A stretch of 64,000 nucleotides of DNA, taken from Begonia masoniana. Taxonomy: Eukaryota; Streptophyta; Magnoliopsida; Cucurbitales; Begoniaceae. The notes under the pieces are model-generated. The model was not told the DNA's origin, did not search any database, and saw only the letters and a program-made list of their open reading frames with translations. This document shows positions 2,316 to 62,451 of the stretch, piece by piece (within the stretch, counting starts at the first letter, position 1; each line of letters begins with the position of its first letter). The stretch covers positions 47,440,902 to 47,504,901 of the forward strand of contig CM039511.1 of the NCBI GenBank assembly GCA_022432975.1. The letters run 5' to 3'. The position numbers and the translations under genes are program-made.

Positions 2316-4780
2316 TGTAACACCCGAGTTACGACTAGGTAATTTTCCTAACTGTATTAACGGTCATGAACATTTAATCTTCGCAGTTTAGAATTTTAAG
2401 ACAAGTGTAATTAATTACATGTGGGTTTAAACTAGGTCGAGTGGCAAAGTTGTAATAATAGAGGGCTTAGACCGATATTTAAAGGAAGTGGAAATGATTT
2501 AAACCTCATTAACTCACTGTAGCCGACATCCTCCATTCTCGGCGATTCCTTCTCTCGCAAGCTCTCGCCCTCTGCTTGCCTGTAATCCTTCCTTCGACGA
2601 CCAGTTTCCTTGCTATTTCTCGGTTACCTTACGCTCGAGGTATGAGTTAGACAATGTAGTTATCAGTTAATCGTTTAGCTCTGTTTTCAGCTTGAACCCG
2701 TAACTCAAATCCTTAAACAACAGGGTAATAATATAGTTCATTGTTAATCTGAGAGTGATAATGTCATTCCGAATCAGTTTTGGACATTTAAAAACAATCA
2801 ACCCTGAGTAACCGATAGTCGAATCTGTCTATTTCAGTTCTTGGATTTCAGATTTTGCACAGAGCGTTAGACTAAGGATTCAGGATGGCTTTGTCTATTA
2901 GACCCTAGGATGACTTGAGGTTAGAACTTATAGGACTTTGTTTTAACTACTGCAATGTGAATGTTTTAGGTGAAGAAGTTTGAAGAGAAAGAGCTCAAAG
3001 TGCTAAGGAGACCAGGTAAGTGAATGTATAGGTTTCTCGGTCAATAGGACCCTACATCAAAGGATGCTAGGTAGAAACTCGTACGATGATTAGTAGTTCT
3101 TTCATGTTACTGTCTAGCATTTATGTCGACGATTGGTTCGATAGTAAGCTTTTCATACTGGCTGAATGTTCTGTCCTACAGCTTGGACGAGTTAAAGAAC
3201 CCCATGCTCATGCATTATCAATGTTTTATGCACATGAAAATGTTTTAAAAGCATGTTCTCTCATGTACAAGATAAGATGATAAAATCCCTACAACGTGGA
3301 TGAGTGAGGGTTGGGGGCGGTTCGGCGCATGTCACAGTCCACAGTAGGACATATGAATACGACCCGCAGTAGGGACCATGATCAAACTCACTGTCGAACC
3401 CCCTTTACCGGCACAAATCCTCTCTCATCCCACGCAACGTGAACAATGATATGAATAACGAATATGGTTCAGCGATATGGACTATGATACGAACGATGAA
3501 TGTGTTTCAGCGACGTGAACTATGTTATGAATGATGAATATGGAATAATGATTATGAACAAGAAAAGACTCATGACCACATTTTTCTCTGAATTATGCAT
3601 TCATGCATTCATGTTATTGTTGCATTCCTTACTAAGCATTAGGCTTATAGTTTAAACATTTGATGTAGGTGACGAGTTTTCAGGTGAGGGATTCAAGTTA
3701 AATGAGGAAGTCTAAGTTTGGCTGTTATAGAATGCTCAGTGTGACAGTGAAGGCTGGATTGACGAATAAGTTCTCTGGTTTATGCTCTATGAACATTATT
3801 AATGATTTGAATATGGAAGTATAAGTAGAATGAAGTTATTTCATAGTACTGGGATTTGAAATTATCTGGATGCTTACTGGATAGAGGATGGTACAGTTTA
3901 TTGAATATCTTTTGTTAAGACTTCCGATATATGTACTCTGAGGGAATCATTGATTTCTGTTTACAGAAATGTTAAGTCTAGAAAGTTTGAGACTTGTTCA
4001 TGATAATGTCTATTGGGAGATGTTGTTTAGTCCTACCGGTAGGAGTGGTGTGTTTTCTATCGGTAGATGCAGGGTGTTTTCTATCGGTAGTTGTAGTATG
4101 TTATCAGTCGGTAAATATAAAGGATTTCTTTTGCTATCGGTAGAAGTAGTGAGATTTCTGTCGGTAGATACAGTGTGTTTATATCGGGTGATGTAGGAGT
4201 CTTTTTCCCTGTCGCCTAGTCATCGGTAGATGTAGTTTATATATTTTTCCTGCTGACGTCATCGGCAGATACAGTTTGTTTATCTTCCTGCTGATGTCAT
4301 CGGCAGATGTAGTTTATATACCTTCCTGCTGACGACATCGGCAGACGCGGTTTGATTATCTGCCGGCTGACATCATCGGCAGATACGGTTTGTATATCTG
4401 CCGACGAATGTTTAATGAATTGTGTGGGATACACGTGACTGTCGGTTGATGTGAGAACTTACATCTACCGATGGGTGATTAATGAATCACGTGAAATGTA
4501 CGGGATAACCGGAAGATGTAGCATTGGTTTTTCGGTAGATGTGAGCCCTCTCCAGCCTTGTCATTTAGTGATCGGCAGATGAGAGTGAAGTTTTGTCGTT
4601 GAGTTCGGCAGATGCTTTTTTTTTAACTCCCCCAGCCAAATGTCTTATTTCATTGTCCATGTCCTACATGTGACTACAGAATTAGTATTTCCGCTGCTTA
4701 GTAAAGAAAAAAATATATAAAAGAGTGAAAGGAGTGAGTAAAGTCATGAATTACGTGGCGATCCTTCCCGGGTCGTTACA
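2316..4780 (+). mobile_element. 3' LTR of gypsy element (2465 bp)
   Basis: The LTR begins TGTAACACCCGAG after the polypurine tract and ends GGGTCGTTACA, giving TGTAAC/GTTACA ends. The next base resumes the satellite (CTAAGACATAG), so the element inserted into satellite DNA; its left end lies outside the window. A TATA-like ATATTTAAAG lies near 2475. Splice-like exon blocks are 2500-2639 (donor GAG/GTATGA), 2970-3015 (46 nt, between TTTTAG and GTAAGT) and 3669 to a TAA at 3713-3715. Exons 2 and 3 together read ...KELKVLRRPGDEFSGE... . No in-frame ATG is visible in exon 1. A minisatellite occupies about 4030-4400. Confidence 0.88.
4030..4620 (+). repeat. Minisatellite with TCGGTAGATG / TCGGCAGATG motifs in the LTR
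   Basis: Imperfect units of about 30-48 bp are built on ATCGGTAGATGTAG (left part) and ATCGGCAGATACAG (right part, units beginning CTTCCTGCTGA). It lies in the distal half of the LTR. The open frame here (about 75 codons) is only the repeat read through and is not a gene. Confidence 0.75.
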
Positions 4781-16765: not shown

Positions 16766-18798
16766 TGTAACACCCGACAATCTCTGCCAGGTGATTTTCT
16801 TAACGGAATTAACTGTCACCTTTATTATTAATACTTGAATTTAATTTTAATGCCTAAGTTTATTTGATTTCTAATTTTGGGGTGGCAAAATGGTAATTAG
16901 GAAGGATCTTATTAATATAAATATAAAATGGAAACCTTAAACCTCACTAAAACCTCACTGTAGCCGACATTCTCCCTGCGATTCTCGTTTCTTCCAGTGC
17001 TCCCTTTCAGCCAGTAATCCTTTCATCAACGACCGACTCTTCATCCTTCTCGCCGATACTCAACTTACTAGGTAAGACTTTGACAATGCAATTGTTGAGT
17101 ATCCATTTAGGTGTTGGTTTGAGTTGGAGGTTGAGATTCAGGTTTGCCTAATAATGGATAGAATCGGAGTATTATTATCTATTAACGTAGTATTTATGAT
17201 TTTGATGATGATAAGTAGGAATTATGAATGTTGGCTGAGCTTGGGTAGTTAGTGAATCCGATTTCCCTTACTGATTAACTAGTATTTCTATGCGTACAAG
17301 GTGTTCAATAAAATTTCTGAATAAGATAAGTAGATCTTAGGAATCTTCCTTGGTTAGGACCTTACTAGTTTTGAGTTTAGATTATTAGGATTTTTATTTT
17401 AACTACTACAATGTAATGTTTTAGGTAAAGAAGTCTAAAGAAAAGGAGCTCAAGTTGCTAAGGAAACCAGGTAAGTGAATGTGTAGGAATCCCGGCCATT
17501 AGGGCCATACATCATAAGGATGCTAGGTAGAAACTGATACGATGATTAGAAGTTATTTAAGCTATTGTCTGTTACTTATGTTGATGTTTATTTTAAGTTA
17601 GTAAGATGGTTTGTACTTGGATGATTTATGGATGTTTGAGAACTATGTTATGTGATGTTCTGTTAGAGCCCATGAAGTCGACTGTCTAGTATGATAATTT
17701 CCATAGTCTGATGATTTAAGAACATTCATGTCATGCATCATGATTTACTTCGCAAGCACATGAAAATGATTTATGAGCATGTTTTCTCCATGAACAAGAT
17801 ATGAGAACGAATATGAAAACGATCACATACAACATGATTAAGTGAGGGTTGGGGGCGTGTTGACGCATGCCACAGTCCAAAGAGGGACCATGAATATGAC
17901 CCAAAGGGAAAAATCACTGTCAACTCCCCTTTTACGACACAAATCCTCCTTAATCCATATGATGAAAACGCTGATCACAAACAAGATGATAAATGATCAT
18001 GAACATGTTTTCTCTCAACTGTAAATGCATAAATACATGTTAGTTTTGCATTCCTTACTAAGCATTAGGCTTATAGTTTAAACATCATGATGTAGGTGAC
18101 GAGTTTTCAGGTGAGGATCTCAAAGTTAATGAAGATGTCTGAGTTTGGTTGCTGGAAGGTGTTCAGGGAGCAATTCTGTAGCTGGATGGCGAACAAGACC
18201 CCCCCCCCTGGTTTAATGTTCTTATGATTTTAGTGATGATTACAAATATGGAAGTATAAGTAGGATGAGAATATATTTTAAATTGTTTACTCGCCAGATG
18301 ATGTAAGTAAATTGTTTACTCGCAAGATGATGTAGTAGTATAGTCGTTCGTTCACCAGATGATGTCTCCTGTCGGATGAGGTAAGTGAGTCACGTGCATT
18401 GCCACCGGTCCACTGGATGATGCCTTTGATGGATGAAGACATCATTCAGCTGGCGTCATCGGTGGATAGTGAATGATTGTTGATCACCGGGCGATGTAGG
18501 TGTTATCTTTATCGGATGATATAAGTGATGATTTGTCGCTTAATGACCGGGCGATGTAGGTGTTCTCTTTACCGGAGGATATAATTAATGTTTTTGTCGG
18601 TTAGTGAAGGGCGATATTTAATTATGCACGTGTAACGCCCGTGTCCGCGGCAGAGGTCTCAGGTATTCCGCTGCTGGGCGATGCCTAATGAATCACGTGT
18701 GATGTCTTAAACTAAGTTATGATAAAAAAAAATACAAAAAAAAAGAGAACAAAGGAAAGTTAAAGATATATGGTCAATTCTAAAAGAGTCATGTTACA
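16766..18798 (+). mobile_element. Solo gypsy LTR (2033 bp) with AACTT target duplication
   Basis: It begins TGTAACACCCGAC, ends ATGTTACA, and is flanked by AACTT at 16761-16765 and 18799-18803 inside a satellite monomer. No internal sequence remains, so it is the product of LTR-LTR recombination. It is a relative of the LTR at 2316: TATA-like ATATAAATATAAAA near 16915, CT-rich leader, donor after 17071, a 46-nt exon-like block 17425-17470 and a 47-nt block 18096-18142 ending TGA. Blocks 2 and 3 read ...KELKLLRKPGDEFSGED... . A minisatellite with CAGATGATGTA-type units lies at about 18290-18610. Confidence 0.92.
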
Positions 18799-21395: not shown

Positions 21396-21842
21396 TGTAA
21401 TACCCAGCTTGTACGGATTTCGGATATAATATATTATATTATTATTTTATTTAATGGCATTTTTGGTAAATATGTCAAATCAGGTCCGTTTCACGAAAAG
21501 AAAGCGTCACTGCGATCCTAACGATTAATAGGAATTTTAAGGAAATTATGGGAATTTTCGGAGATTAAACGCTATATTCCGAGTAATTACCTTTATCGTA
21601 ATGTAAATGACGTTCTCGTAAAAATAGCAAACGAGGTCCGAATTGCGAACGGACAGTTTTATTAAATCTCAAATAATAAGTTGGGTATATTGGCAAAATA
21701 TGGAAATTTGGGAAAGTCGAATCGCTAGACGATTAACGAACCGAAGAACGAAATCTATAAAGAAAACTCAAGAAGGACAAAATGGTAATTAATACAAGAC
21801 AAAATTTAATAAAAACAGAAATACTTCTCCTCCATCGACAGA

Positions 21843-23310
21843 ATGCATTTCTTCCTCTCTGTTTCTCATTTTCTCTCGCAAACCCTCTCTGGCCGCCGAC
21901 GTTTCTCACGATCCGACCTCCGGTTCTCTTCCGTTTTTCCTCCGTTCTTCACGTTTCTTCCTCCAATCGACGTTCTAGGTATGTCTCTATAGTTTTAGAA
22001 CGTTAGATTTCGAGTTTCGTAACGTTTAAATAATTAGGGTTTCGTTTAGGTTTCGATAAAAATATCGATTTAGGATCCGAAATTAATAGTTTGAGTATGA
22101 TTGACGATATAAAAGACGTATTTGACGTTATTGGACGAAGTTATATCAATTTGTGAAAATGTTAAAATTAGGGCTTTTTGAGATTTTAGGAAAAACTCGT
22201 AAATTGAGAATTTAGGTGCTGAGCGTAAATTTATCGATTAAATAGCTCAATGAATTGGATTAGAACTTTAGGAAAGTTTCCTTAGTTAAGGTTTTGTGAA
22301 TTTGGACGATCGATAGTTTAAACTCGTTTAACGTCGATATTGTGATTTGCTTCAGACAAACAACGCTCGTGGACGGAGCTTGAGCTGCTTTGGACACGAG
22401 GTAAGTTCTCGTGATCTTCTTTGGCCGATTGGCCTACACCGTACGTCGAATGTCGTCTCGAGGAGTTTTGGAGATGCCTTTAGTTAGTTTTGCTCGGTTT
22501 GGGTAGCTAGGTCTTAGGAGCTTATAGTTTATGCTTTTACAGTCATATAGTATTGCTTGTTTACTGTAAGTTATTGAACTGTTCACGCATCACTTGTTTT
22601 AAGGTAAAGTATAAAAAAATGAATTTCCACACAGAGTTTTAAAGATAACGTAATGCATTGCATCGGCCGAAAGGCTTATCGTTCATTGGCCGCAAGGCTT
22701 ATCGTGCATCGGCCGAAAGGCTTATTGATCATTGGCCGTAAGGCTTATTGTGCATTGGCCGAAAGGCGTATTGTATTGGCCGAAAGGCGTATTGTATTGG
22801 CCGAAAGGCGTATTGAGCATAGCATTGGCCGAAAGGCGTATTGTATTGGCCGAAAGGCGTATTGAGCATAGCATTGGCCGAAAGGCGTATTGAGCATAGC
22901 ATTGGCCGAAAGGCGTATTGTATTGGCCGAAAGGCGTATTGAGCATAGTATTGGCCGAAAGGCGTATTGAGCATAGCATTGGCCGAAAGGCGTATTGAGC
23001 ATAGCATTGGCCGAAAGGCGTATTGTATTGGCCGAAAGGCATATTGAGCATAGTATTGGCCGAAAGGCGTATTGTATTGGCCGAAAGGCGTATCGTATTG
23101 GCCGAAAGGCGTATTGTATTGGCCGAAAGGCGTATTGAGCATTGCATAGTAAGATAAAAATAAAGCATGGTTTATCGAACTCATACGCACAGCATGCATT
23201 GCATTTACGTAGAGCTTACTGGGATTTCATCTCATAGTGTATTGTATGGTGTAGGTGACCTAGATATCGAGGAACCAGGTGAGGATGGGATTCCTCCTCC
23301 TGAGGCATGA
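21843..23310 (+). CDS. Candidate spliced 78-aa LTR microprotein (three exons)
   Basis: Proposed exons are 21843-21978 (ATG to CTAG/GTATGT), 22356-22400 (TTCAG/ACAAAC to CGAG/GTAAGT) and 23255-23310 (GTGTAG/GTGACC to TGA). Phases agree (136 + 45 + 56 nt = 79 codons with stop). The N-terminus starts MHFFLSVSHF and is Ser/Phe/Arg-rich; the middle reads SWTELELLWTRGDLDI; the tail reads EEPGEDGIPPPEA. The 57-aa product predicted from the LTR at 56405 shares FFTF, KQxSW, TRGDL and IPPPE. The 3' LTR copy keeps the structure (28133-28268, 28646-28690, 29575-29630) with a Ser-to-Leu change in exon 2. No known domain is recognised and the function is unknown. Splicing is inferred from consensus sites and cross-LTR conservation; the blocks could instead be untranslated leader exons. 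Confidence 0.45.
22655..23145 (+). repeat. GGCCGAAAGGC minisatellite in the 5' LTR
   Basis: More than 20 units of an 18-bp core (ATTGGCCGAAAGGCGTATTG, overlapping ends) alternate with longer 27-29-bp units that add GAGCATAGC. The first five units are variants (CATCGGCCGAAAGGCTTAT). All three minus-strand frames stay open here only because the units lack stops. The copy in the 3' LTR (28950-29457) differs in unit number and by small deletions. Confidence 0.9.
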
Positions 23311-23700
23311 TACAGTTGACGAAGGATGGCGGCGGTGGTGTGCTGGCGCAGTCGAGGCTCACCTGACCCGTGGGGATAGTATGTATAGATTTTGGGAACG
23401 TTTTGGGATAATTGATAGAATATGTATAGGATGTTTAGGTAATGATATTTGTTTTGAAATTCTAGAACTGTTTGGGTAAACTGTTTATAGAAATGTTTTG
23501 GTTTAAAACAGTTATTTGAACGTTACAGAAATGTTTTTTTAAATGTTATGGATATGCTCGGTTTTAGAGCTTTCCACGCCATTTGTTTTTAGGAAGTTTT
23601 ATCACGTATTGGAATAGTATGTTTGGTGATGATTGGGAATGAAATCGAAAGAATATTGAAGTGTTTAGGGTGCTAGAATGTGAAGGAGATGGAGGGAGTT

Positions 23701-24241: not shown

Positions 24242-24390
24242 CCCCGGGTTTTAAAATCGGTTCTGTAGACTGCTCGACTGCACAGCTACTACGCGGACAT
24301 TCTTCATCAACTGTAAGTATGTTTATAGCTTTATTTGATTTCTAGTTTCTTAGAATATTTATTTAACTTTTATATAGGAGTTACATAATT

Positions 24391-24864
24391 ATGGTACGTC
24401 CACGAAACGATCGAGATGACAGAGACGATACGATAGACCAATTGAGAGAGTTTATAGCACAACAGTCCCAACATCTTGACCAACAGGCCCGACTTATAGA
24501 TAGCCAATCTCGTCAACTAGAGGCATTAATAAATCGAGAAAGGTCTAGGACCCAAGGGGTGGTTGCTCCTGATGACCATGGTGCAAAGAGGAAGGGCAAG
24601 GAAGAAATAGAACAAAGCCGATCGAAGCGCACACAAGGGACTTCTCGAGGACCACTGTGTCCTAATTGCGAGAGGGAGCATTATGGAAAGTGCAGATTAG
24701 GCACAGAAATGTGCTATAGATGTGGAGTGATTGGCCACTACGTCAGGAGGTGCCCGAAACTGGGTAGGGATCAGAAAAAGGCTGCACCAAGGATAATTGC
24801 CCCGAACGAGGGCGAGAATAATGGCCAACCCTCAGCTGTTTCAGGTATAGTTTTATTTCGGTAG
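24391..24864 (+). CDS. Truncated Gag (157 aa) with zinc knuckle, capsid core missing
   Basis: The N-terminus (MVRPRNDRDDRDDTIDQLRE) and a Gln-rich coiled-coil-like stretch QQSQHLDQQARLID lead directly to a basic linker (KRKGKEEIEQSRSKR), a Cys-rich half motif CPNCEREHYGKC (about residues 90-101) and an intact CCHC knuckle CYRCGVIGHYVRRC (about 109-122). A gypsy Gag usually has roughly 150-250 residues of capsid between N-terminus and knuckle; these are absent. The ATG is the first after the primer site. The frame stops shortly after SAVSGIVLF; a donor-like TTTCAG/GTATAG lies at about 24845. The role is probably RNA binding or packaging, inferred from the knuckle. A diverged relative with the same architecture is at 61885. 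Confidence 0.8.
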   Translation: MVRPRNDRDDRDDTIDQLREFIAQQSQHLDQQARLIDSQSRQLEALINRERSRTQGVVAPDDHGAKRKGKEEIEQSRSKRTQGTSRGPLCPNCEREHYGKCRLGTEMCYRCGVIGHYVRRCPKLGRDQKKAAPRIIAPNEGENNGQPSAVSGIVLFR

Positions 24865-27682: not shown

Positions 27683-30544
27683 TGTAATACCCAGCTTGTA
27701 CGGATTTCGGATATAATATATTATATTATTATTTTATTAGATAATGGCATTTTTGGTAAATATGTCAAATCAGGTCCGTTTCACGAAAAGAAAGCGTCAC
27801 TGCGATCCTAACGATTAATAGGAATTTTAAGGAAATTATGGGAATTTTCGGAGATTAAACGCTATATTCCGAGTAATTACCTTTATCGTAATGTAAATGA
27901 CGTTCTCATAAAAATAGCAAACGAGGTCCGAATTGCGAACGGACAGTTTTATTAAATCTCAAATAATAAGTTGGGTATATTGGCAAAATATGGAAATTTG
28001 GGAAAGTCGAATCGCTGGACGATTAACGAACCGAAGAACGAAATCTATAAAGAAAACTCAAGAAGGACAAAATGGTAATTTTGACAAGACAAAATTTAAT
28101 AAAAACAGAAATACTTCTCCTCCATCGACAGAATGCATTTCTTCCTCTCTGTTTCTCATTTTCTCTCGCAAACCCTCTCTGGCCGCCGACGTTTCTCACG
28201 ATCCGACCTCCGGTTCTCTTCCGTTTTTCCTCCGTTCTTCACGTTTCTTCCTCCAATCGACGTTCTAGGTATGTCTCTATAGTTTTAGAACGTTAGATTT
28301 CGAGTTTCGTAACGTTTAAATAATTAGGGTTTCGTTTAGGTTTCGATAAAAATATCGATTTAGGATCCGAAATTAATAGTTTGAGTATGATTGACGATAT
28401 AAAAGACGTATTTGACGTTATTGGACGAAGTTATATCAATTTGTGAAAATGTTAAAATTAGGGCTTTTTGAGATTTTAGGAAAAACTCGTAAATTGAGAA
28501 TTTAGGTGCTGAGCGTAAATTTATCGATTAAATAGCTCAATGAATTGGATTAGAACTTTAGGAAAGTTTCCTTAGTTAAGGTTTTGTGAATTTGGACGAT
28601 CGATAGTTTAAACTCGTTTAACGTCGATATTGTGATTTGCTTCAGACAAACAACGCTTGTGGACGGAGCTTGAGCTGCTTTGGACACGAGGTAAGTTCTC
28701 GTGATTCTTGTTTTGGCCGATTGGCCTATACCGTACTTCGAATGTCGTCTCGAGGAGTTTTGGAGATGCCTTTAGTTAGTTTTGCTCGGTTTGGGTAGCT
28801 AGGTCTTAGGAGCTTATAGTTTATGCTTTTACAGTCATATAGTATTGCTTGTTTACTGTAAATTATTGAACTGTTCACGCATCACTTGTTTTAAGGTAAA
28901 GTATAAAAAAAAATGAATTTCCACACAGAGTTTTAAAGATAACGTAATGCATTGCATCGGCCGAAAGGCTTATCGTTCATTGGCCGCAAGGCTTATCGTG
29001 CATCGGCCGAAAGGCTTATTGATCATTGGCCGTAAGGCTTATTGTGCATTGGCCGTAAGGCTTATTGTGCATTGGCCGAAAGGCGTATTGTATTGGCCGA
29101 AAGGCGTATTGAGCATAGCATTGGCCGAAAGTATTGTCATTGGCCGAAAGGCGTATGAGCATAGCATTGGCCGAAAGGCGTATTGAGCATAGCATTGGCC
29201 GAAAGGCGTATTGAGCATAGCATTGGCCGAAGGCGTATTGTATTGGCCGAAAGGCGTATTGAGCATAGTATTGGCCGAAAGGCGTATTGAGCATAGCATT
29301 GGCCGAAAGGCGTATTGAGCATAGCATTGGCCGAAAGGCGTATTGTATTGGCCGAAAGGCGTATTGAGCATAGTATTGGCCGAAAGGCGTATTGTATTGG
29401 CCGAAAGGCGTATCGTATTGGCCGAAAGGCGTATTGTATTGGCCGAAAGGCGTATTGAGCATTGCATAGTAAGATAAAAATAAAGCATGGTTTATCGAAC
29501 TCATACGCACAGCATGCATTGCATTTACGTAGAGCTTACTGGGATTTCATCTCATAGTGTATTGTATGGTGTAGGTGACCTAGATATCGAGGAACCAGGT
29601 GAGGATGGGATTCCTCCTCCTGAGGCATGATACAGTTGACGAAGGATGGCGGCGGTGGTGTGCTGGCGCAGTCGAGGCTCACCTGACCCGTGGGGATAGT
29701 ATGTATAGATTTTGGGAACGTTTTGGGATAATTGATAGAATATGTATAGGATGTTTAGGTAATGATATTTGTTTTGAAATTCTAGAACTGTTTGGGTAAA
29801 CTGTTTATAGAAATGTTTTGGTTTAAAACAGTTATTTGAACGTTACAGAAATGTTTTTTTAAATGTTATGGATATGCTCGGTTTTAGAGCTTTCCACGCC
29901 ATTTGTTTTTAGGAAGTTTTATCACGTATTGGAATAGTATGTTTGGTGATGATTGGGAATGAAATCGAAAGAATATTGAAGTGTTTAGGGTGCTAGAATG
30001 TGAAGGAGAAGGAGGGAGTTGCTCTCTGGAATCGGATTCCAGAGAGCTGTTTATATGTTTTGCTCTCTGTTGTTTTGCTCTCTGTTGTGAGAAAAGAAAG
30101 GAGAAGGCAAAAATACAGAAGGGGGAGGGAGTGGGTCGCTGCAAAGTGCAGCGACTGGGCGCTGCAAAGAGCAGCGCCCGATCGCTGCAAAGAGCAGCGA
30201 CTGGGCGCTGCAAAGAGCAGCGCCCGATCGCTGCACAATGCAGCGATCGTGCGCGGCATGGTGCAGCGCACACGGCGACCGTGCGCTGCAAATAGCAGCG
30301 CCCGGTCGCTGCTATTTTTCGAGGGTAGAATTTCGATTCTTCCCTCCCTTTATTTTAATTATAATTTATATTAAATATAGTTTTTATTTAATTGTTTTAA
30401 ATGATTCTAAAGTTAGATTTCAATTCCGATTTCGATTTTGGTTTCGATTTCGGTTTAGGTTCCGCCTAGAGTTTAATTAAAGATATCAGTTTAAAAAAAA
30501 AAAAATAGTACGGGAATTGCGGGTACAGTATTAGGGTCGTTACA
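27683..30544 (+). repeat. 3' LTR of the young gag-only gypsy element (2862 bp)
   Basis: Preceded by polypurine tract AATAAGGAGGGTGGAA and followed by CATGA. Outside the minisatellite it differs from the 5' LTR at scattered sites, for example a short insertion near 27740, GTTCTCATA for GTTCTCGTA near 27905, GCTGGACG for GCTAGACG near 28015, and CGCGGCATGG for CGCTGCATGG near 30252. Minisatellite, hairpin (30021-30047) and palindrome cluster (30134-30315) are all present. Confidence 0.93.
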
Positions 30545-44628: not shown

Positions 44629-45083
44629 TGTAACGACCAGCCGCGCGTAACGTTTTGGCACGTCACCCGTTCTAGATCTCCCCATACGCGGGATCAAGTC
44701 TTGCAGGTCCCACGAGGGGTAGCTGTCCGTGTTCCCTCAGGGTGTCCAGGGGTAATCACGCTCTTCCCTCCCCGCAGAGGGTATTTTGCCTTCCCCCCCA
44801 CTCGAACCCAGTACCTCCGGGACTAGTACCTGGGCTACAAGTGAGAGTACCCACTTGGAGCTAGTACACAGAGGAACTTCCCAGTCTGTCACCAACCTGG
44901 TACTACTCTCGCCGAAGTACGCTTAACTTCGGAGTTCTGATGGCATCCGTGCCGGATCGCTACTAGCTCCAGTGGTACTCCTCACTTGTAGCCCAGGTCT
45001 CAAGTCCCTGAGGTAATTGGTTCGAGTGGGGAAGGCAAAAACCCTCTGCCGGGGAGGGGTATCGTGAGTACCCGTGGACTGCC
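44629..45083 (-). mobile_element. 5S-core palindromic element, copy A (right arm truncated)
   Basis: Left arm 44629-44866, core 44867-44960 with 5S on the minus strand, inner part of the right arm 44961-45083. It is the most diverged copy, with several indels (for example GGCATCCGTGCC in the core), and is joined to B through TTATTTG. Confidence 0.75.
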
Positions 45084-45088
45084 TTATT

Positions 45089-45560
45089 TGTAACGACCGC
45101 CTAGCTGTACGTTTGCGCACTCACCCCCCGTGTCTAGATCCTCACCCTACGCTTGGTTCCCGTCGTGCAGGTCCCACTGATTGCTATCTGCCACGTGTGT
45201 CCCCTCAGGGATGTCCAAACCTGTACTCACGATTCCCTCCCCCTGCAGAGGGTTTTTGCCTTCCCCTCCACTCGCAACCAGTACCTCATGTACAGAGACC
45301 TGGGCTACAAGTGAGGAGTACCACTTGAGCTAGTACACAGGAGGACTTCCCAGTCGGTCACCCAACCTGGTACTACTCTCGCCGAAGTACGCTTAACTTC
45401 GGAGTTCTGATGGAATCCGGTGCCGTATCGCTACTAGCTCAAGTGGTACTCCTCACTTGTAGCCCAGGTACTAGTCCCTGAGGTACTGGGTTCGAGTGGG
45501 GGGGAAGGCAAAAACCCTCTGCAGGGAGAGGGAAGATCGTGAGTACACGTGGACGGCCTT
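45089..45560 (-). mobile_element. 5S-core palindromic element, copy B (right arm truncated)
   Basis: Left arm 45089-45335, a 96-bp core 45336-45431 (5S on the minus strand) and about 128 bp of right arm ending ACACGTGGACGGCC before a T-run. It breaks at the same place as A, so A-B-C looks like a tandem repeat of about 460-475 bp. Confidence 0.78.
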
Positions 45561-45563
45561 TTT

Positions 45564-48361
45564 TGTAACGACCGCCTAGCTGTACGTTGCTGGCACGTCA
45601 CCCCGTTCTAGATCTCACCATACGCGGGGTCAAGTCGTGCAGGTCCCACTGATGGGCTAGCTGCCACGTGTGTCCCCTCAGGGCTGTCCACGTGTACTCA
45701 CGATCTTCCCTCTCCCTGCAGAGGGTTTTTGCCTTCCCCCCCACTCGAACCCAGTACCTCAGGGACTTGTTGTAATATCCAGCTTTTCTGGATATTATTA
45801 TTTTAATATATAATGGTATTTTTGTAAATATGTCAAAACAAGCTCGTTTCTCAAGAAGAAAGCGTCATTACGATCCTAACGATTAATAGGAATTTTAAGG
45901 AAATTATGAGAATTTTCGGAGTTTAAACGCTATATTCCGAGTAGATACATTTATCGAAATGTAAAAGACGTTCTCGTAAAAATAGCAAACGAGGTCCGTT
46001 TTGCGAACGGATAGTTTTGTTAGATCCTAAATAATAAGTTAGACATATTGTTAAAATAAGGAAATTTGGTGAACCCAAATAGTTGGACGATTAACGAACC
46101 GAATGACGAAACGAATATAAAAACTATGGAAGGGCATTTTAGTAATTTTCCAAATCAATTTATAAAATAGCCTAAAAACCTTTCTTCTTCATTTTGTTTC
46201 CTTCTGCGATTTCCAGAGAAGAAGCTCGCGGCCTCCTCCCTGCCCGCGCGACGTTTTCCTCCAATCTGACCTCCGTTCGTTCCGATTTCTTCACGGTTTC
46301 TCCTCCTCTCGCTATCCTAGGTATGAGTCCACGTTCTTAGTGCGTTTATTTCGAGTTTTACGGAGATGTAGTTAATTAGGGTTTCGATTGATTTTCGTTA
46401 AAAACGCGAATTAGGGTTCGTAATTAATAGGTTAGCCTTGATTAAGTATATATTAAACGTATTTGACGTTATTGGACGAAGTTAAATTGAATTGTGGAAA
46501 AACGTTAAATTCGAGAATTTAGGGATTTTCGAGAAAGGTTCGTGAATTGTGATTTTGAACCATCGAGCGTGAATTGGTCATTTAAACGTCTCGATTAATT
46601 AAGTTAGAACTTTAGGAAAGTTCCTTAGTTAAGAATTTTATTAAATTGGACAATTGGGAGTTCTGATGTGTCATATAATATTGTAAATTTGCCTCAGACG
46701 AACGACGCTCGTGGACGGAGCTTGAGCTGCTTTGGACACGAGGTAAGTTCTCGTGATCTTTCCTGGCCGATTGGCCTACACCGTACTTCGATGTAGCGTT
46801 GAGGATCTTGTGGATTGTTTGTTTTAAATTGCTTTGGTGGGTAGTTAGGGTTTAAATTGTTATGGGTTATTTTATTTCGGTCTCGATGGTACATATGCTT
46901 GGTTGTTTATTTTATGTTAATATCTGTTCATGCATCACGTGTTTTTAAAGATCATGAAAACGAGTTATGCACGATGTTTTAAAGCAAATGCAAAGAAAAG
47001 ATGACCCTTCGGTATATAGTTTACATGGCCCTTCGGTATACAGTTTATAGCAAAGCAAAGCATAGCAAAGCAAAGTAAAGTAAAGCAAAGCAAAGTAAAG
47101 TAAAGAAAACAAAGCATGATTTACAGATTCATATGCACAGCACGCATTTGCATTTACTAGAGCTTACTGAGATTTTTATCTCATAGATGTCTGTATGGTG
47201 TAGGTGACATAGATCCAGGTGAGGACGACGTTCCTCCTTCCGATGTCTGAGGCAGTTGATGGATGATGGCCCGTGGGAGTGCGCTGAGTAGTCGAGACGC
47301 GTTTTGACCCGTGGGGATGTACGTATGGACTCTGGAGTTATTTAGGGATATTTTGAATTGATAATTGTATAGAGTATATTAGGTTGTTTGGATCTGGATA
47401 GGGGTTAAAAATGTTTGGTAACTGTATGTAAAAGGCTTTGATTAAACTGTTTTGTTAAACGTTATGAAATGTTTTGATTCGTTTTGGGATTGGTACGGGT
47501 AAGCTCGGTTTTTAGAGCTATTCACGCAGTTGGACTTCGCAAAGTCTGCTGTAAGCTAATTGAGTTTTGAATACATTTAATTGGGTGGATGAGTAATAAG
47601 TTTATTGAGATTTTAGATGTAAAACAATAGAAGTTTTGCTCTCTGGAAATCGGATTCCAGAGAGCTAATTGAAGTGTTTGATGCATAGAGTGTTGAAGGA
47701 TTTGAAGGAACTGGAACAGGTGTGAAGGAAATGGTCGCTGCTTGCTGTGAAGCAATGCAGCGATCGATCTCTGCTGCAGAGCAGAGATCGATCGCTGCTG
47801 CTATAAAGCAATGCAGCGATCGATCTCTGCTGTGCAGCAGAGATCGATCGCTGCTGCTATAAGGCAATGCAGAGATCGATCGCTGCTGCTATAAGGCAAT
47901 GCAACGATCGATCTCTGCTGCAGCAGAGATCGATCGCTGCCACAGCTTAGTGATGCAGCGCTCAGTCGCTGCATGTAGCAGCGACTGGTCGCTACCTCAA
48001 TTGTTTCAGGGCGGACCGTTTTGCCCTTTCCTTCTTCTGATTTGTTTTTAAGTTATTTTTATTAAATGGTTTAAATGTTATTTAGTTATTAAATGTTTTG
48101 TTTTAAATGATTTCAAGGTTTGATTTCAATTCCGTTTTCAGTTCTGATTTCAACTTCAGTTTAAATTCCGCATTAAGTTTTAATTAAAGTACGGGAAAGT
48201 ATAAAGTGTAAAATAAAAATGAAAAATTCATACGGGTAAATGGGTACAGTATTAGGGGTGTTACACTTGTACCTGGGCTACAAGTGAGGAGTACCACTTG
48301 AGCTAGTACAGAGGAGGACTTCTCAGTTGGTCACCCAATCTGGTACTACTCTCGCCGACCC
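45564..48361 (-). mobile_element. 5S-core palindromic element, copy C, split by a solo LTR
   Basis: Left arm 45564-45770 continues at 48271 after the nested LTR. The core starts at about 48308 and stops at CTCGCCGA near 48356, so half the core and the whole right arm are missing. The next copy starts after CCCTTTTT. Confidence 0.75.
45771..48265 (+). mobile_element. Solo gypsy LTR (2495 bp) with CTTGT target duplication
   Basis: Begins TGTAATATCCAGC, ends GTGTTACA, and is flanked by CTTGT (45766-45770 and 48266-48270). It is a relative of the LTR at 21396: TATA-like AATATAAAAAC near 46112, donor at 46320 (CCTAG/GTATGA), a 45-nt block 46698-46742, a 47-nt block 47204-47250 ending TGA, an AAAGCAAAG simple repeat (47045-47115), hairpin 47638-47665 and a GATCGATCGCTGCTGC palindrome cluster (47731-47995). 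Blocks 2-3 read SWTELELLWTRGDIDPGEDD then VPPSDV. Exon 1 is open in the matching phase but has no ATG. Confidence 0.92.
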
Positions 48362-48366
48362 TTTTT

Positions 48367-48951
48367 TGTAACGACCGCCCAGCTGTACGTTGCTAGCACG
48401 TCACCCCGTTCTAGATCTCACCATACGCGGGGTCAAGTCGTGCAGGTCCCACTGATGGGCTAGCTGCCACGTGTGTCCCCTCAGGGCCGTCCACGTGTAC
48501 TCACGATCTTCCCTCTCCCTGCAGAGGGTTTTTGCCTTCCCCCCCACTCGAACCCAGTACCTCAGGGACTTGTACCTGGGCTACAAGTGAGGAGTACCAC
48601 TTGAGCTAGTACAGAGGAGGACTTCCTAGTTGGTCACCCAACCTGGTACTACTCTCGCCGAAGTACGCTTAACTTTGGAGTTCTGATGGGATCCGGTGCC
48701 GTAGCACTATTAGCTCAAGTGGTACTCCTCACTTGTAGCCCAGGTACTAGTCCCTGAGGTACTGGGTTCGAGTGGGGGGAAGGCAAAAACCCTCTGCAGG
48801 GAGAGGGAAGATCTTGAGTACACGTGGACGGCCATGAGGGGACACACGTGGCAGCTAGCCCATCGGTGGGACCTGCACGACTTGACCCCGCGTATGGTGA
48901 GATCTAGAACGTAGTGACATGCCAGCAACGTAAAGCTGGGCGGTCGTTACA
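48367..48951 (-). mobile_element. 5S-core palindromic element, copy D (complete, 585 bp)
   Basis: Left arm 48367-48611 (245 bp), core 48612-48707 (96 bp, 5S on the minus strand), right arm 48708-48951 (244 bp), ends TGTAACGACC/GGTCGTTACA. The 16 bp to copy E, AAAAAGGTGCCTTTTT, is itself a palindrome. D and E therefore sit head to head, their cores on opposite strands. Confidence 0.85.
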
Positions 48952-48967
48952 AAAAAGGTGCCTTTTT

Positions 48968-49553
48968 TGTAACGACCGCCCAGCTATACGTTGCTGGCAC
49001 GTCACCCCGTTCTAGATCTCACCATACGCGGGGTCAAGTCGTGCAGGTCCCACCGATGGGCTAGCTGCCACGTGTGTCCCCTCAGGGCTGTCCACGTGTA
49101 CTCACGATCTTCCCTCCCCCTGCAGAGGGTTTTTGCCTTCCCCCCCACTCGAACCCAGTACCTCAGGGACTAGTACCTGGGCTACAAGTGAGGAGTACCA
49201 CTTGAGCTAGTAGCGCTACGGCACCGGATCCCATCAGAACTCCGAAGTTAAGCGTACTTCGGCGAGAGTAGTACCAGGTTGGGTGACCGACCGGGAAGTC
49301 CTCCTGTGTACTAGCTCAAGTGGTACTCCTCACTTGTAGCCCAGGTACTAGTCCCTGAGGTACTGGGTTCGAGTGGGGAGGAAGGCAAAAACCCTCTGCA
49401 GGGAGAGGGAAGATCGTGAGTACACGTGGACGGCCCTGAGGGGACACACGTGGCAGCTAGCCTACCGGTGGGACCTGCACGACTTGACCCCGCGTATGGT
49501 GAGATCTAGAACGGGGTGACGTGCCAGCAACGTACAGCTGGGCAGTCGTTACA
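48968..49553 (+). mobile_element. 5S-core palindromic element, copy E (complete, 586 bp)
   Basis: Left arm 48968-49212 (245 bp) and right arm 49309-49553 (245 bp) are complementary with only a handful of mismatches by eye. The 96-bp core 49213-49308 reads GCACCGGATCCCATCAGAAC, then AGTTAAGCG (box A region), GAGAGTAGTACCAGG and TGGGTGACC (box C region), and GGGAAGTCCTCC. It covers roughly nt 25-110 of plant 5S rRNA and lacks both termini. The internal Pol III promoter region is kept with few changes. It is not a functional 5S gene. Confidence 0.88.
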
Positions 49554-56622: not shown

Positions 56623-57771
56623 ATGGTTCCTCAACATTCCAACGCCGATTTCTCCTCCGTTCGTCCTCCGTTCTTCACGTTTTCTTCCCCAAACTCGATT
56701 CTAGGTAAGGTTCTATGGTTTTGAAAAGTTTATTCAAAGTTTTCGGGTTGTTTAACGGTTAGGGTTTCGTTTAGGGTTTTGTTAAAAATGTGATTTAGGA
56801 TTTGAAATTTATAGATTTATCGTATTTGAGAATATTATGGACGTATTGAACGTTATTGGACGAAGTTAAACAGATTTATGAGAAATGTTAAAATTTGATG
56901 AATTTCGGGTTTTTGGAAAAACTCGTTATTGGTGATTTTGAGGTATCGAGCGTTAAGTATTTGTTAATATACCTCGATTAGTTAAGTTAGGAATTTTAGG
57001 AAAATTTCCTTAGTTAAGGTTTTGTTAAATACGGACGTTTAACGGTTTAAATTCGTTTTAACGACAATGTTGTGAAATTGCCTTAGGTAAACAAAGCTCG
57101 TGGATGGGGTTTGAGCTGCAACGGACGCGAGGTAAGTTCTCATGACTTATTCTGGCCGATTGGCCTACACCGTACGTCGAAGTCGTCTCGATGAGTTTTG
57201 GTGACGTATATGTTTAAATTGTTTTGGCTGAGTAGTTAGGATTAGTTCAGCATAGGTTATGCTCTTATTGTCTCGATGGTACTAATCATGTATGTTTACT
57301 TTATGTCATATTGAACTGTTCACGCATCACGTGTTTTAGAAGAGCATGAAAAATGAATTTCCACGTGATGTTTTAAAGAAAATGGCGATGTGGCCTGGAA
57401 AGGGGCTATTGATCTATTGTGAAGATCGACTACGGGTTTGTCACAATACCACATCTATTATGTACTCATATAGTTATAGGTCATGTGAGATGGGGCTCAG
57501 GCACGGCTGTACATGTTATAAGCATGTACCCCCCTCCTCTAGCTGGAAAGAGTAGTCCGATCGCTGGATGTGCTCTCTCCGGTTAGTGGGCTGAGATCTC
57601 GGTGACACCCACAGAGTAAAATAAAGAAAATGCTGCATGATTTATGAACTCATATGCACAACATGCATTTACATTTACGAGAGCTTGCTGAGATTTTTAT
57701 CTCATAGATGTCTGTATGGTGTAGGTGACCTCGAAATAGGTGAAGACGAGATCCCTCCACCTGAGGAGTGA
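56623..57771 (+). CDS. Candidate spliced 57-aa LTR microprotein (three exons)
   Basis: Exons 56623-56704 (ATG to TTCTAG/GTAAGG), 57087-57131 (CCTTAG/GTAAAC to CGAG/GTAAGT) and 57725-57771 (GTGTAG/GTGACC to TGA) total 174 nt and stay in phase. It begins MVPQHSNADF; the exon 1 end reads PPFFTFSSPNSIL, comparable with PPFFTFLPPIDVL in the LTR at 21396. Exon 2 reads KQSSWMGFELQRTRGDLEI, and the tail GEDEIPPPEE. Three separate segments agree between two diverged LTRs in the same phase, which supports coding. No known domain; expression unproven. Confidence 0.45.
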
Positions 57772-58763
57772 TACAGTTGACGGAGGATGGCTTGCGGTGG
57801 TGTGCTGCGAAGTCGATGCTTAACCAGACCCGTGGGGAAGTATGTATGTGTTTTGAGGGTATCGGGGCGTTTTGGGCTGATGGTAGATTAGAAAAAGTAA
57901 TTGTACAGTTAGAACATTTTAGGATGTTTGAGAACTGATAGTTGATAGGTTTATGTTTACATGTTTTAAACGTTTTGAAAACCTGTTTTTATAAACTGCT
58001 TGGACCTTTTAAAACAAGAGGAAAAGTATAGTTTTAAATATATCCACGCGGTTTGTTTTTTGGAAAACTAGTTATGTTTAAAATGGGGTTGAAGTGTTGA
58101 AGAAAATTGTTAATTTGTGAAGTGGGTGTACAGAAAATGTAACACCCGAGAATTTCCTGTAACGCACATATGTCTTAGGGTAGACGGTTAGAATCGTTTA
58201 ATGATAGGTGTTGAGAAATGGATTTGGAATTAAGGCAAGCAAAAAGGAGAAAATGAGGTTTGACTATTCAAACCATTAAGTGGAAAAGTCAAAGACTTTA
58301 AACAACCAATAGTATTTTACATGCATTAATTGAATGAGAAAAGAAAAATGGAATTTTATGCTTTTGGCGTTGGAAGACAAAAGAGAAAAGGTGAAGGTTA
58401 AAGTAAAATTTTAGAGAAATGAGTTGCAAAAACAAAAAGTAGGAAAAGTGGTTGTTTAAAAAGGTAAAATTGGTAAGTTGTCTTCATTTTTTCCCTTGCC
58501 CTCCACGATTTCTCCTTGGCAGCCATTGAAGCTCCATCTTCTTCTTTTCATCAAGAGATTTTAAGATATTAAGGTAAGCTTTTGTTGGGGTTTTAGTTTA
58601 ATGTTTGTTAGGGGTTGTTTTTAGAGGTTTTTAGGGTGTTTTTGGGGAGTTTGGTTAAGGTTTGGAAAACCCTAACCTTAGATTCCGAAAATTGAGTTTA
58701 GATGTTAGATTTCTTTCCTATTTTAATGGTTTAGTTGTTGAATGGATTGATTTAGGTTGTTAG

Positions 58764-59174: not shown

Positions 59175-59794
59175 GTTAGAGTGGTTAGATGGAAGATTGA
59201 AGGAGTGTTACACAAAAACGGTTTAAGAACACTTTAGGGCCAATTCTGTTTTTGGGAATTTCGGGCTGGCCAAATTGTTTGTTTGATTAATTTGAGTGAT
59301 TCAATGGATAGTAGACGTGTAGAGGTTTCCGAGTTGGGGTGGCACGTCGAAATCCGTTGAAAAACGAGAAAGTTTTGGCCGTTTAAAGTTGGACGTCGGT
59401 AATTTGTATAAAAATCGGGTTTAGTATTTTAAGTGTAAAGTGTGTTTTAGGTATTGTTAAGTTTTAATTAGAAAATCTTTTAGAATTTATTGATAGCTTG
59501 TCAAACCAAGTTTACGTTGTTTTAGGTCATCGAGTGTGTGAATTGGCCGAGTTAAGTGAACAAGTGGAAAACCGAGCGTCCAGGTAAGTAGTGGTATCTA
59601 TTCCTTCGCCTTCGGGCCTACACCATAGAACGGTAGGGTTATTTATTTCGTGTTATGTTTTGTTGAGTTTGGTTGCATAATGATTGACGTGCATCATGGT
59701 TTTCAGTAACGAAAATACGAGTTGTTTTGCATGGTTGGTTGTGAGTGTGAACGTAATCAGATAAAGTGAATTGTAATGAATCTCAAATAGTGAG

Positions 59795-60110: not shown

Positions 60111-61723
60111 ACTCAAATCATACGGCTTATGAAACGAATAATGTAATGAACAGCAACGAATAGCAAATAAATACAACTGAGTGGTAGAAACTGCATGTAT
60201 TAAGTTGCTTGCATTGTGTTGTAGTCTCATTCGTTATTCCCTACTTGCTAAGCATTAGGCTTACGTTTTGTGTTCTGTGGTGTAGGTGACGAATTCTGGT
60301 CAGGTGAGGTTGATGAGACAGATGAGGTTTAGGCTGCAGTTGGAGGAGTACGGAGTTCGCTGGTGCACGCTATTGTCGGGGCGTCTCGATTACTATCGTC
60401 CTCGGGTATTTTGTGGGAATGTTATAGATGGTCTGGTAAGAGTTTTGTAAGGCTTTTTGTTTAAAACTACTTCGAATTATTGGGTGTAGTATGAATATTT
60501 ACAACAATGTTTTTGTGTAGTGAAGTTTAATGTTTTTGAGTTGGGGTATTGTATCTACTGGTTGTAGTATTTGGGAAGTTGAAAACATATATTTTTGTGT
60601 GTTTTGGTTTCAGATTTCGGTTTAAAGAAATTTAGGTGTTACGCCGTCCGTTTTGGTTTTTAAATAATTAACGTCGGGTTATGTTTGCTATTTTTTTTAT
60701 TAACCGTTTGAAGCCGGTTTTCTACAAAATTTACGGGATTTGAAGATTTATGTGTCGGGAGTGTATGGTAAAAATTTCGAGATTTTTGGAGGTGTCGGGC
60801 ATATAGAAAAGTGTAGAAAGTTTGGGAAGGTCAAGAAAAGTCAAAACGGGGTGTTTTGGGACGTTTTTGGCTGGAAAAACCCGAGCCGGCCCGATCAATC
60901 GGGCATGGGTCATGACCGATCGCGGCCGGGGTCAATTTTGGTAAAAATAGCCCGAGCGGGCCTGATCAAAACGCGACCGATCGCGGTTGGGCACGCACGG
61001 GGCGTGCCCAGCGCGCGCGCGCACAGCGCTGCACACAGCGCACCGCGCGCGCTGTCTGGGCGCGTGCGGCTCCCAGCGCGCGCCCAACAGTGGTTTTTTT
61101 TTTAAAAAAAAAATTTTAAAAAATACTATTCTACTTTGTTTTAACCCGACTTTTTCCAACATATTTTAAACGTATTTTGGCACGTTTTCCAACAAAAATC
61201 AAGGGTTTGAAAAACTCAAAAACCGAGTCGAAAAATTTACGAAAAAGCATTTTAAACATGGTTTTAAAACGGAATTTGTTTGCAATGTGACGTACCGAGC
61301 CGGGGTGGGTTCGGGGCGTTACAGAAAAGGTAAAAGAAACATGGTGTTTTGCTCTCTGGAATTTCAGATTCCAGAGAGCATTTGTAAAAAAAAAGAGAAG
61401 AGAAAGGGGATCGATCGCTGTGATCGATCGCTGCTGCAGCGATCTGATCGCCGCGATCGATCCTCGGCAGAAAGTCGATTCTGCCCTTCCTGTTTTAAAT
61501 TATTTTAGTTTTAATTGTTTTTACTATAAATTGTTTTAAGTTTATTAATGATTTTGTTTTTAATGGTTTAAAACATAGATTTCATTTCCGCTTAAGGTTA
61601 GGTTTAAAGTTTATAATGATAAGTTTATTGGGATAAAAAAAAATGTACGGAAAATTGGGTACGGTTAATGGTCGCTACAGTTAGGCCGTGGCGGCCCTGA
61701 CCGGGTTGGGGTCGTCACAGTTA

Positions 61724-61884: not shown

Positions 61885-62451
61885 ATGCCGAAAGCACCTA
61901 GACAATCCGAGGAATATCTTATTAGCCGGCTTATAGACTTAGCACTCCAACAATCAGAACAGATAGGGATTTTACTCAACCGAGATAGAAATGATAACGG
62001 ACAAGGTAATACTTCATGGAACCGGGATAGAGAACAAACTAGGCAATTCCAACCTCCAATGTTCGATGTACGAGTTATAGATCCGATACAGGTTGAGGGG
62101 TCCCTAAGTGATTTTCTGCCACCCCCAGTTGATGAGAGGCCACAACCAGTGAGAGGCATTAAGAAGCCCAACGATTCATCCATGGTGCAGGGCAAGAGCA
62201 AACAACCCCGTGGAGCTCGTCAAGCTCCTCTGTACCCTACATGTCTGAAGGGTCATTTTAGGGAGTGTCAATTGTATTCAGAGCAATGTTTTAGGTGCGA
62301 TAAAAGGGGTCACAAAGCCAGGGATTGTCTAGGGCAGAGCAAGAAGCGACCGAGTGGTCCTTCGAGGATAACTGCTATGACCGAAGATAGGGAAGCGGCC
62401 CAACCACTTGTGGTTCCAGGTATAATTTCATTTCAGCAGTTATTAGGATAA
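61885..62451 (+). CDS. Truncated Gag (188 aa) with zinc knuckle, second gag-only element
   Basis: Starts MPKAPRQSEEYLISRLIDLA, followed by QQSEQIGILLNRDR, an acidic/Pro middle (FLPPPVDERPQPVRG), a half motif YPTCLKGHFREC and an intact CCHC knuckle CFRCDKRGHKARDC, then a basic Ser/Pro tail ending VPGIISFQQLLG. An upstream in-frame ATG at 61840 lies before the acceptor-like site, so I prefer 61885. As in the 157-aa protein at 24391, the capsid core between N-terminus and knuckle is missing and the frame ends just past a donor-like CCAG/GTATAA. The two are homologous in architecture but share few residues outside the knuckle region. Probably an RNA-binding remnant Gag; function inferred. Confidence 0.78.
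   Translation: MPKAPRQSEEYLISRLIDLALQQSEQIGILLNRDRNDNGQGNTSWNRDREQTRQFQPPMFDVRVIDPIQVEGSLSDFLPPPVDERPQPVRGIKKPNDSSMVQGKSKQPRGARQAPLYPTCLKGHFRECQLYSEQCFRCDKRGHKARDCLGQSKKRPSGPSRITAMTEDREAAQPLVVPGIISFQQLLG

Follow-up and report, generated by a model that had tools for sequence, protein, structure and literature searches.

A splice-delimited exon under codon-like selection in the LTRs of Begonia masoniana Ty3/gypsy elements, and its possible use as a coding tail for Gag

In this report we describe three short blocks within the long terminal repeats (LTRs) of Ty3/gypsy elements of Begonia masoniana which, judging from their splice signals, are very probably spliced exons, and the last of which, block 3, looks like a conserved protein tail under codon-like selection. 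The reading that we prefer, to which we give a probability of roughly 0.38, is that these are leader exons with a second role in the 3' LTR, that of a coding tail exon whose likeliest partner is Gag. An earlier note on the window (the whole stretch of 64,000 nucleotides analysed here) had proposed a conserved spliced microprotein encoded by the LTRs; the splice-delimited blocks are indeed shared by many LTR families, and a codon bias is present in block 3, but no general ATG start was found in block 1.

Gag and Pol are often encoded in a single open reading frame (ORF), though Gag must be made in large excess for the life cycle to proceed. To our knowledge, the route to this excess is unsettled for most plant Ty3/gypsy clades. 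Two routes are set out in the part of a recent review available to us, ribosomal frameshifting and short spliced GAG RNAs, and plant LTR elements are said there to be generally intron-less, with few exceptions (PMC12786077). If our reading is true, LTR exons could splice into host transcripts, and the annotation of LTRs as non-coding would be incomplete.

RESULTS

Host elements and copies compared

The plant DNA of the window contains a 208-bp satellite, which appears to be centromere-like, and carries Ty3/gypsy elements. The six LTRs that carry the blocks are named here A (2316), B (16766), C (21396), D (45771), E (56405) and F (58138); C and its 3' partner at 27683 are the pair of one element, which gives seven copies of six LTRs in the window. 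Downstream of E lie a primer-binding site and then gag, and F is nested within E. C, D and E are about 68-79% related across most of the LTR, introns included, with 80-96% identity between C and D over the first ~310 nt, A and B match piecewise at 72-82%, and in the same comparisons F has one short match to B only, 5S-like sequence aside. Upstream of LTR A we found RT_RNaseH, RT_RNaseH_2, Integrase_H2C2 and SH3_Tf2-1 domains, as in a Ty3/gypsy pol; the gag-pol of this element was taken from an additional 3.5 kb of sequence, the ORF tested ends at 2091 and the remainder of pol, to ~2274, was inspected by eye. We provisionally take the host elements to be chromoviruses of the Tekay/Del clade, and it is only tentatively that we describe the blocks as exons within the LTRs of Tekay-like Ty3/gypsy elements.

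The window also holds five 5S-rRNA-like matches (Rfam 5S_rRNA; 44859-49316 and 58844-58950), apparently within presumably Cassandra-like repeats that surround D and are inserted into intron 1 of F. In the most conserved part of U3, C (21472-21528) and D (45830-45886) have short ATG-started frames that run to a stop, MSNQVRFTKRKRHCDPND and MSKQARFSRRKRHYDPND; three related copies lie elsewhere (L036, L037 and L047), the one in L047 being shifted by a 1-nt deletion.

A search of the 795-Mb genome with block 3 of C gave 3681 first-look candidates, 40 of which were scored, and the 30 C-like loci retrieved were 95-100% identical to C across the 171-nt query. A further 22 block-3 sites, on ten contigs and in several divergent families, came from twenty 10-kb stretches of this genome. 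Six of the stretches (L036, L037, L047-L050) include places among the matches already listed for C; the other 14 were chosen at round coordinates and yielded 10 of the 22 sites. The occurrence of these additional sites in divergent families indicates a widespread trait of a large LTR group, not one peculiar to six copies, and exon-bearing LTRs probably number thousands in the genome. The site filter required TGTAG[GA]T[GA]A and, upstream of it, a second motif; it fixes the first codons of block 3. For the comparisons of the block-3 frame, the upstream frame and the sequence past the stop, 25 of 61 sites (45 unique sequences, among them an unrelated one, L006+521) were used, near-identical copies of C being dropped.

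Splice signals

The exons 1 and 2 and the further splice features are as follows.

21790..21978, forward strand: exon 1 (block 1) of C in the 5' LTR, a CT-rich leader with donor AG/GTATG, its start estimated from a TATA-like motif at ~21756; strongly divergent, coding by no test
22356..22400, forward strand: exon 2 of C, 45 nt, CAG/.../GTAAGT; no codon periodicity across families
2970..3015, forward strand: exon 2 of A, 46 nt; window block comparison
17425..17470, forward strand: exon 2 of B, 46 nt, the frame shut just upstream by the TAG that ends exon 1; window block comparison
46698..46742, forward strand: exon 2 of D, 45 nt; window block comparison
57087..57131, forward strand: exon 2 of E, 45 nt, with an in-frame ATG; window block comparison
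59526..59583, forward strand: exon 2 of F, 58 nt, with an in-frame TAA; window block comparison
23220..23234, forward strand: hairpin of C between the branch-site-like TTACT and the intron 2 acceptor; covariation across sites
23311..23378, forward strand: exon 3 of C after the stop, up to donor GTATGT; conservation falls at the donor
24313..24377, forward strand: candidate leader intron of C between primer-binding site and gag ATG, CT/GTAAGT...ATATAG/G; also in elements A and E

The block lengths given in the earlier note for A to F (46, 46, 45, 45, 45 and 58 nt for block 2; 47, 47, 56, 47, 47 and 47 nt for block 3) were confirmed, as were the splice dinucleotides: in the six LTRs of the window AG precedes each block 2 and each block 3, and GTAAGT follows each block 2. 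Exon 2 was recognized at 16 of the 22 extra sites and not at three, and the donors that the script assigned at L036+61, L037+149 and L037-110, all at locus ends, are spurious. Most of these further copies are likewise bounded by AG and GTAAGT, L033+1969 having AT instead of AG.

Intron 2 ends in a branch-site-like TTACT or TTGCT, directly followed by a 5-bp hairpin and then by 20-27 nt to the AG (20-23 nt in 23 of 25 sites). Of 26 sites supplied, one lay too near a locus end; among the 25 usable ones the stem is perfect in 23, G-U being allowed, and the stem scores total 122, where 200 shuffles gave 92 on average and 102 at most, the site filter overlapping the 5' arm of the hairpin and not the 3' arm. 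Two pairs show two-sided exchanges, pair 2 being G-C in 11 and A-T in 13 sites and pair 5 being A-T in nine and C-G in 14, counts which represent few events because the sites are related: the change at pair 2 sets the C/D/E group apart from all other sites, and variation at pair 5 is seen inside C/D/E too. That the hairpin is kept through compensatory changes on both sides is, in our view, good evidence that the acceptor works in RNA. Spliced retrocopies were not seen, neither of the C-family exon 2/3 junction in the whole genome (at up to 3 mismatches) nor of five junction types in 363 kb.

In the C/D/E group, 11 of 13 sites have a donor (GTATGT, GTAAGT or GTACGT) ~68 nt downstream of the block-3 stop, with identity dropping beyond it; for the A/B and F groups the site alignment revealed no counterpart of this donor. 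Intron 2 is likewise conserved at its two ends, and in the C/D/E alignment these ends and U3, none of them exonic, are conserved at least as well as the exons. The 5' end of intron 2 (22400-22450 and equivalents) has a conserved hairpin of the GGCC-loop-GGCC type followed by CTACACC in C, D and E, and similar sequences occur in A, B and F. A minisatellite of TTGGCCGAAAGGCGTA-type units occupies 22655-23147 in intron 2 of C; it is not equally long in the two LTRs and varies from copy to copy, with the result that intron 2 spans 595 to 1336 nt among C-like loci.

Coding evidence in block 3

Block 3 and the exon 3 to which it belongs were located at the following positions.

23255..23310, forward strand: block 3 of C, the coding part of exon 3, GDLDIEEPGEDGIPPPEA then stop; codon-position bias, in-frame indels
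29575..29630, forward strand: block 3 of C in the 3' LTR, the copy proposed as tail exon; same element as the 5' copy
3669..3715, forward strand: block 3 of A, GDEFSGEGFKLNEEV then stop; window block comparison
18096..18142, forward strand: block 3 of B, GDEFSGEDLKVNEDV then stop; window block comparison
47204..47319, forward strand: exon 3 of D, coding to 47250 (GDIDPGEDDVPPSDV then stop), then to donor GTACGT; window and site alignment
57725..57839, forward strand: exon 3 of E, coding to 57771 (GDLEIGEDEIPPPEE then stop), then to donor GTATGT; window and site alignment
60286..60332, forward strand: block 3 of F, GDEFWSGEVDETDEV then stop; window block comparison

The joined tail readings reported earlier hold in all six LTRs; the tails are acidic, of the type GDxxxGEDxVPPPE before the stop in one group and GDEFSGED... 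in another. Within the window, the signs of coding that had been put forward are modest, with pN/pS over blocks 2 and 3 of 0.33 for A-B (column-shuffle p=0.04) and of 0.82, 0.47 and 0.79 for C-D, C-E and D-E, the last three being non-significant, and the codon signal of block 3 is firm only with the copies from elsewhere in the genome. In nine non-overlapping pairs, picked by eye as closest relatives and with filter-fixed bases excluded, block 3 differs at 20, 14 and 37 of 123 sites each at the three codon positions (p=4e-4). A separate pooled estimate of pN/pS for block 3 is 0.43. The bias persists when sequences are re-paired (21/119, 13/120 and 42/120, p=1e-5) and in a subset of seven pairs from which two with decayed members had been dropped (p=3e-4), and the 60 nt past the stop are flat in the nine pairs (47/179, 49/178 and 49/179).

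The frame is kept to the shared stop, or to a stop three codons later (L036+4114 and L045), in 22 of 25 divergent sites. The fixed stop position that had been noted in the window is upheld in these sites, the homologous codon being TAA, TGA or TAG. Each length of block 3 in the 22 frame-intact sites (29, 32, 47, 56 or 59 nt) is 2 mod 3, and the pre-stop indels that the multiple alignment gives for them are multiples of three; the few 1-nt gaps of the pairwise alignments fall at or just past the stop codon, or against L039, in which the block-3 stop is lost. L033-6464 and L050+7952, related copies at different places, have lost the same 1 nt, so that a long new tail takes the place of the end of the frame. 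The earlier proposal of coding selection on all the blocks stands for block 3, which is probably translated by some route; block 2 is flat and block 1 strongly divergent.

A weak excess at third positions (18/170, 19/175 and 30/168, p=0.035) is seen over the 58 nt upstream of block 3, which we leave uninterpreted because the unspliced frame there is open for 4-17 codons in 20 of the 25 sites. It is open for 26-33 codons in the other five, with an in-frame ATG in 6 of 25, and unspliced translation of block 3 was rejected. Antisense coding was rejected as well, since its codon bias would extend past the stop, where the sequence is flat. A protein database search with the 78-aa product of C gave one word-sharing candidate and none at E<=10, and viral contigs searched by integrase held no relatives. 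Matches of a pattern scan in viral contigs (31) and in contigs of prokaryote-titled GTDB genomes (58) were taken as chance, a stricter pattern being found in 2 of the 89.

Exons 1 and 2

The lengths of block 2 across copies (45, 46, 47, 48 and 58 nt) are off three, so that the claim of indels in multiples of three holds for block 3 and fails here. By codon position, differences number 16, 17 and 20 of 63 in the last 27 nt (p=0.49) and 12/36, 13/41 and 16/41 before them (p=0.54), in a test of 14 of 20 sequences whose power is limited by the 53 differences in the last 27 nt; the start of exon 2 in L033-6464 is uncertain. Stops in frame with block 3 occur in exon 2 of six of 20 copies (L031, L032, L033+1969, L036+4114, L039 and F). 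On these three grounds we rejected exon 2 as coding. Because block 2 is flat, it is probably not the coding partner of block 3, and its lack of periodicity together with its stops suggests that the tail is joined to another coding start, or that translation begins at a non-AUG codon.

Block 1 belongs to the most poorly conserved stretches of the LTR: identities for C-D, C-E and D-E are 0.24-0.56 in two 45-column windows over its first two thirds and 0.64-0.73 in the window that follows. The products of 78 aa (C) and 57 aa (E) described earlier both exist but do not agree in all blocks, given these identities, and the ATGs of C and E are non-homologous. Exon 1 was recognized at 16 of the 22 sites tried. 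The leaders examined are mostly AUG-poor: in 14 of 16, including A, B, D, L035, L045 and L046, exon 2 and the final 130 nt of exon 1 are free of ATG (L033+1969 was counted on exon 1 only, as the script found no exon 2), which implies that an ATG-started microprotein is not a general product. An in-frame ATG in exon 1 or 2 is found in five of 16 leaders, namely C, L037-7248 and L047, which are one family, E and L039; in four of 16, three being C-type, it lies within exon 1. L048 and L049, close relatives of C, are without the ATG of C, the frame is shut by a TAG at the exon 1/2 junction in B and L037-3358, and the exon 1/2 phase varies between families. A complete ATG-started frame is present in at least five of 30 close C-like loci examined with 1.5 kb flanks, two of these being the window's own copies.

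Gag as the proposed partner

Since block 3 appears as a start-less coding exon in phase 1, and the LTR is present twice in an element, the second copy suggests itself as the coding one. Under the reading that we prefer, the CT-rich exon 1, the short exon 2 and exon 3 of the 5' LTR would form a spliced leader upstream of gag, with exon 3 terminating ~68 nt past the block-3 stop in C/D/E, and the first ~47 nt of exon 3 would encode a protein tail under codon-like selection. The copy of exon 3 in the 3' LTR may then act as a terminal coding exon, to which the end of gag would be spliced in phase 1 from an xCA/G/GT site at the Gag/protease junction. The predicted product is Gag only, with its own stop and an acidic tail, in excess over Gag-Pol. 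The candidate gag ends in the window are these.

24391..24844 (ORF to 24861), forward strand: gag-like ORF of C with a CCHC knuckle and a candidate phase-1 donor TCAG/GTATAG at 24845, its use presumed; domain search
61885..62419 (ORF to 62448), forward strand: gag-like ORF of E up to a candidate phase-1 donor CCAG/GTATAA; CCHC knuckle below the Pfam cut-off

The Gag/protease junction reads NCA GGT, that is AG/GT in the same phase 1 as block 3, in five lineages: A-like (L031, L051), L042/L044, L047, C/L046 and E. Decayed A-like copies have ACA GAT (L032) and ATA GGT (L038) at this place, and L049 is unreadable. The protein motif (VxGT/I) in part dictates this GGT, and GGT accounts for 10 of the 29 Gly codons of element A. 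In autonomous copies the candidate donors at the end of gag are weak (GTACAA, GTACTA), and L047 has GGT TAC. In C and E the gag-like ORF ends 5 and 9 codons, respectively, past the GGT, and the domain search gave no capsid domain in either, for which reasons these two are apparently non-autonomous relatives.

That Gag is the partner of block 3 is accordingly offered as a tentative suggestion, the idea having been formed post hoc and the junction being read from sequence. It is conceivable, although we consider it doubtful, that a plant Ty3/gypsy lineage uses its two LTR copies differently, the 5' copy as an AUG-poor spliced leader and the 3' copy as a coding exon that would give Gag a conserved acidic tail and a stop, setting the ratio of Gag to Gag-Pol by splicing.

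DISCUSSION

An internal leader exon would account better than a terminal one for the exon 3 donor found in most sites of the C/D/E group. It is rather unlikely, in our estimate, that the function of the blocks is that of a leader peptide (uORF), in which exons 1, 2 and 3 stand ahead of gag in one spliced mRNA and a short peptide, started at an AUG or near-cognate codon in exon 2 and ended in block 3, tunes the translation of gag. Apart from the donor, it would be in keeping with a leader intron acceptor just ahead of the gag ATG in A, C and E, and with the ninth codon before the end of exon 2, for which E and L039 have ATG, and C, D, L011, L012, L046, L036b and L043 have ACG (9 of 20 copies). 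The same codon, however, is AAA or AAG in six copies of the A/B group and TCG, GAA, GAG or GTG in the other five, exon 2 has no periodicity from it onwards or before it, L036+4114 has a stop as the last full codon of exon 2, and the scarcity of in-frame AUGs in exons 1 and 2 also speaks against such a peptide. That scarcity would be expected if the exons were non-coding and conserved for splicing and RNA structure only, the codon pattern of block 3 being chance or a by-product; conservation that reaches into the introns and beyond the stop, and the frame-breaking deletion common to two related copies, agree with this too. We nevertheless regard a purely non-coding leader as unlikely, because the codon bias of block 3 is robust to re-pairing and absent past the stop, and the frame-intact sites have their pre-stop indels in threes and all three stop codons at a homologous site.

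If block 3 is coding, it might also be the tail exon of an upstream coding exon other than Gag, for example at another site of the polyprotein or in an adjacent host gene. The constraint on the codons of block 3, set against its absence in exon 2, would suit this, but the last 74 nt of pol in element A (2201-2274) contain no AGGT, and no partner emerged, the other AGGT sites of gag-pol having been compared within the Gag/protease-junction copies; we consider it improbable. The least probable of the readings, and a very improbable one, is the free LTR microprotein of about 57-78 aa, started at an ATG in block 1 and encoded by three exons. Its frame is complete in C and E and in a minority of the close C-like loci, yet the start codons of C and E are non-homologous and in-frame ATGs in exon 1 are nearly confined to the C type, and a divergent block 1, a variable exon 1/2 phase and the junctions closed in B and L037-3358 stand against it. 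We therefore retain, with the probability given above, the leader exons that double as a coding tail exon in the 3' LTR.

In animal retroviruses the splice donor lies within the LTR, and the elements described here are like them in that splice signals are tied to LTR structure; no relation is claimed. In BARE1, a Ty1/copia element of barley, a CAG/GTAT donor at the end of gag leads to a Gag-only RNA (PMC3735527). It resembles the system proposed here in being an LTR element of a plant whose gag and pol share one ORF, and in that splicing gives an early stop and a short new C-terminus; it differs in that BARE1 removes a 104-nt intron in the internal region (PMC3735527), whereas the acceptor proposed here would lie in the 3' LTR of a Ty3/gypsy element and add a conserved tail. 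EVADE, with its spliced shGAG RNA as reported in the excerpted review, is grouped with BARE1 as the closest spliced-Gag systems (PMC12786077). In Drosophila copia an RNA for Gag arises when almost the whole of pol is spliced out, but the superfamily and the host are different and the portion of the source available does not describe the acceptor as lying within the LTR (PMC3735527). The sunflower elements Tyran and Varan produce spliced short RNAs that code for a GAG with an RNA-binding motif and no capsid, which recalls the capsid-less gag-like ORFs of C and E; no LTR-coded tail is reported in the accessible part of that study, and Tekay elements are absent from its expressed set (PMC7730604).

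The claim of the earlier note that no LTR-encoded protein of this kind had been described needs care, since in CRM group A chromoviruses the coding region extends into the 3' LTR, as stated in the part of the source at hand (PMC3059260). CRM coding simply runs into the LTR, however, and encodes the CR motif, whereas the tail described here is acidic and splice-delimited (PMC3059260). The pol of element A ends before the LTR, as judged by eye, so that an unspliced run into the 3' LTR of the CRM type was not found in it. In the portions of the open-licence literature available to us we found no splice-delimited, codon-selected exon in the LTRs of Ty3/gypsy elements. Both LTR-coded protein ends (CRM group A) and spliced Gag RNAs (BARE1, EVADE and the sunflower elements) are already known; what is new, within that literature, is the presence of such an exon inside Ty3/gypsy LTRs.
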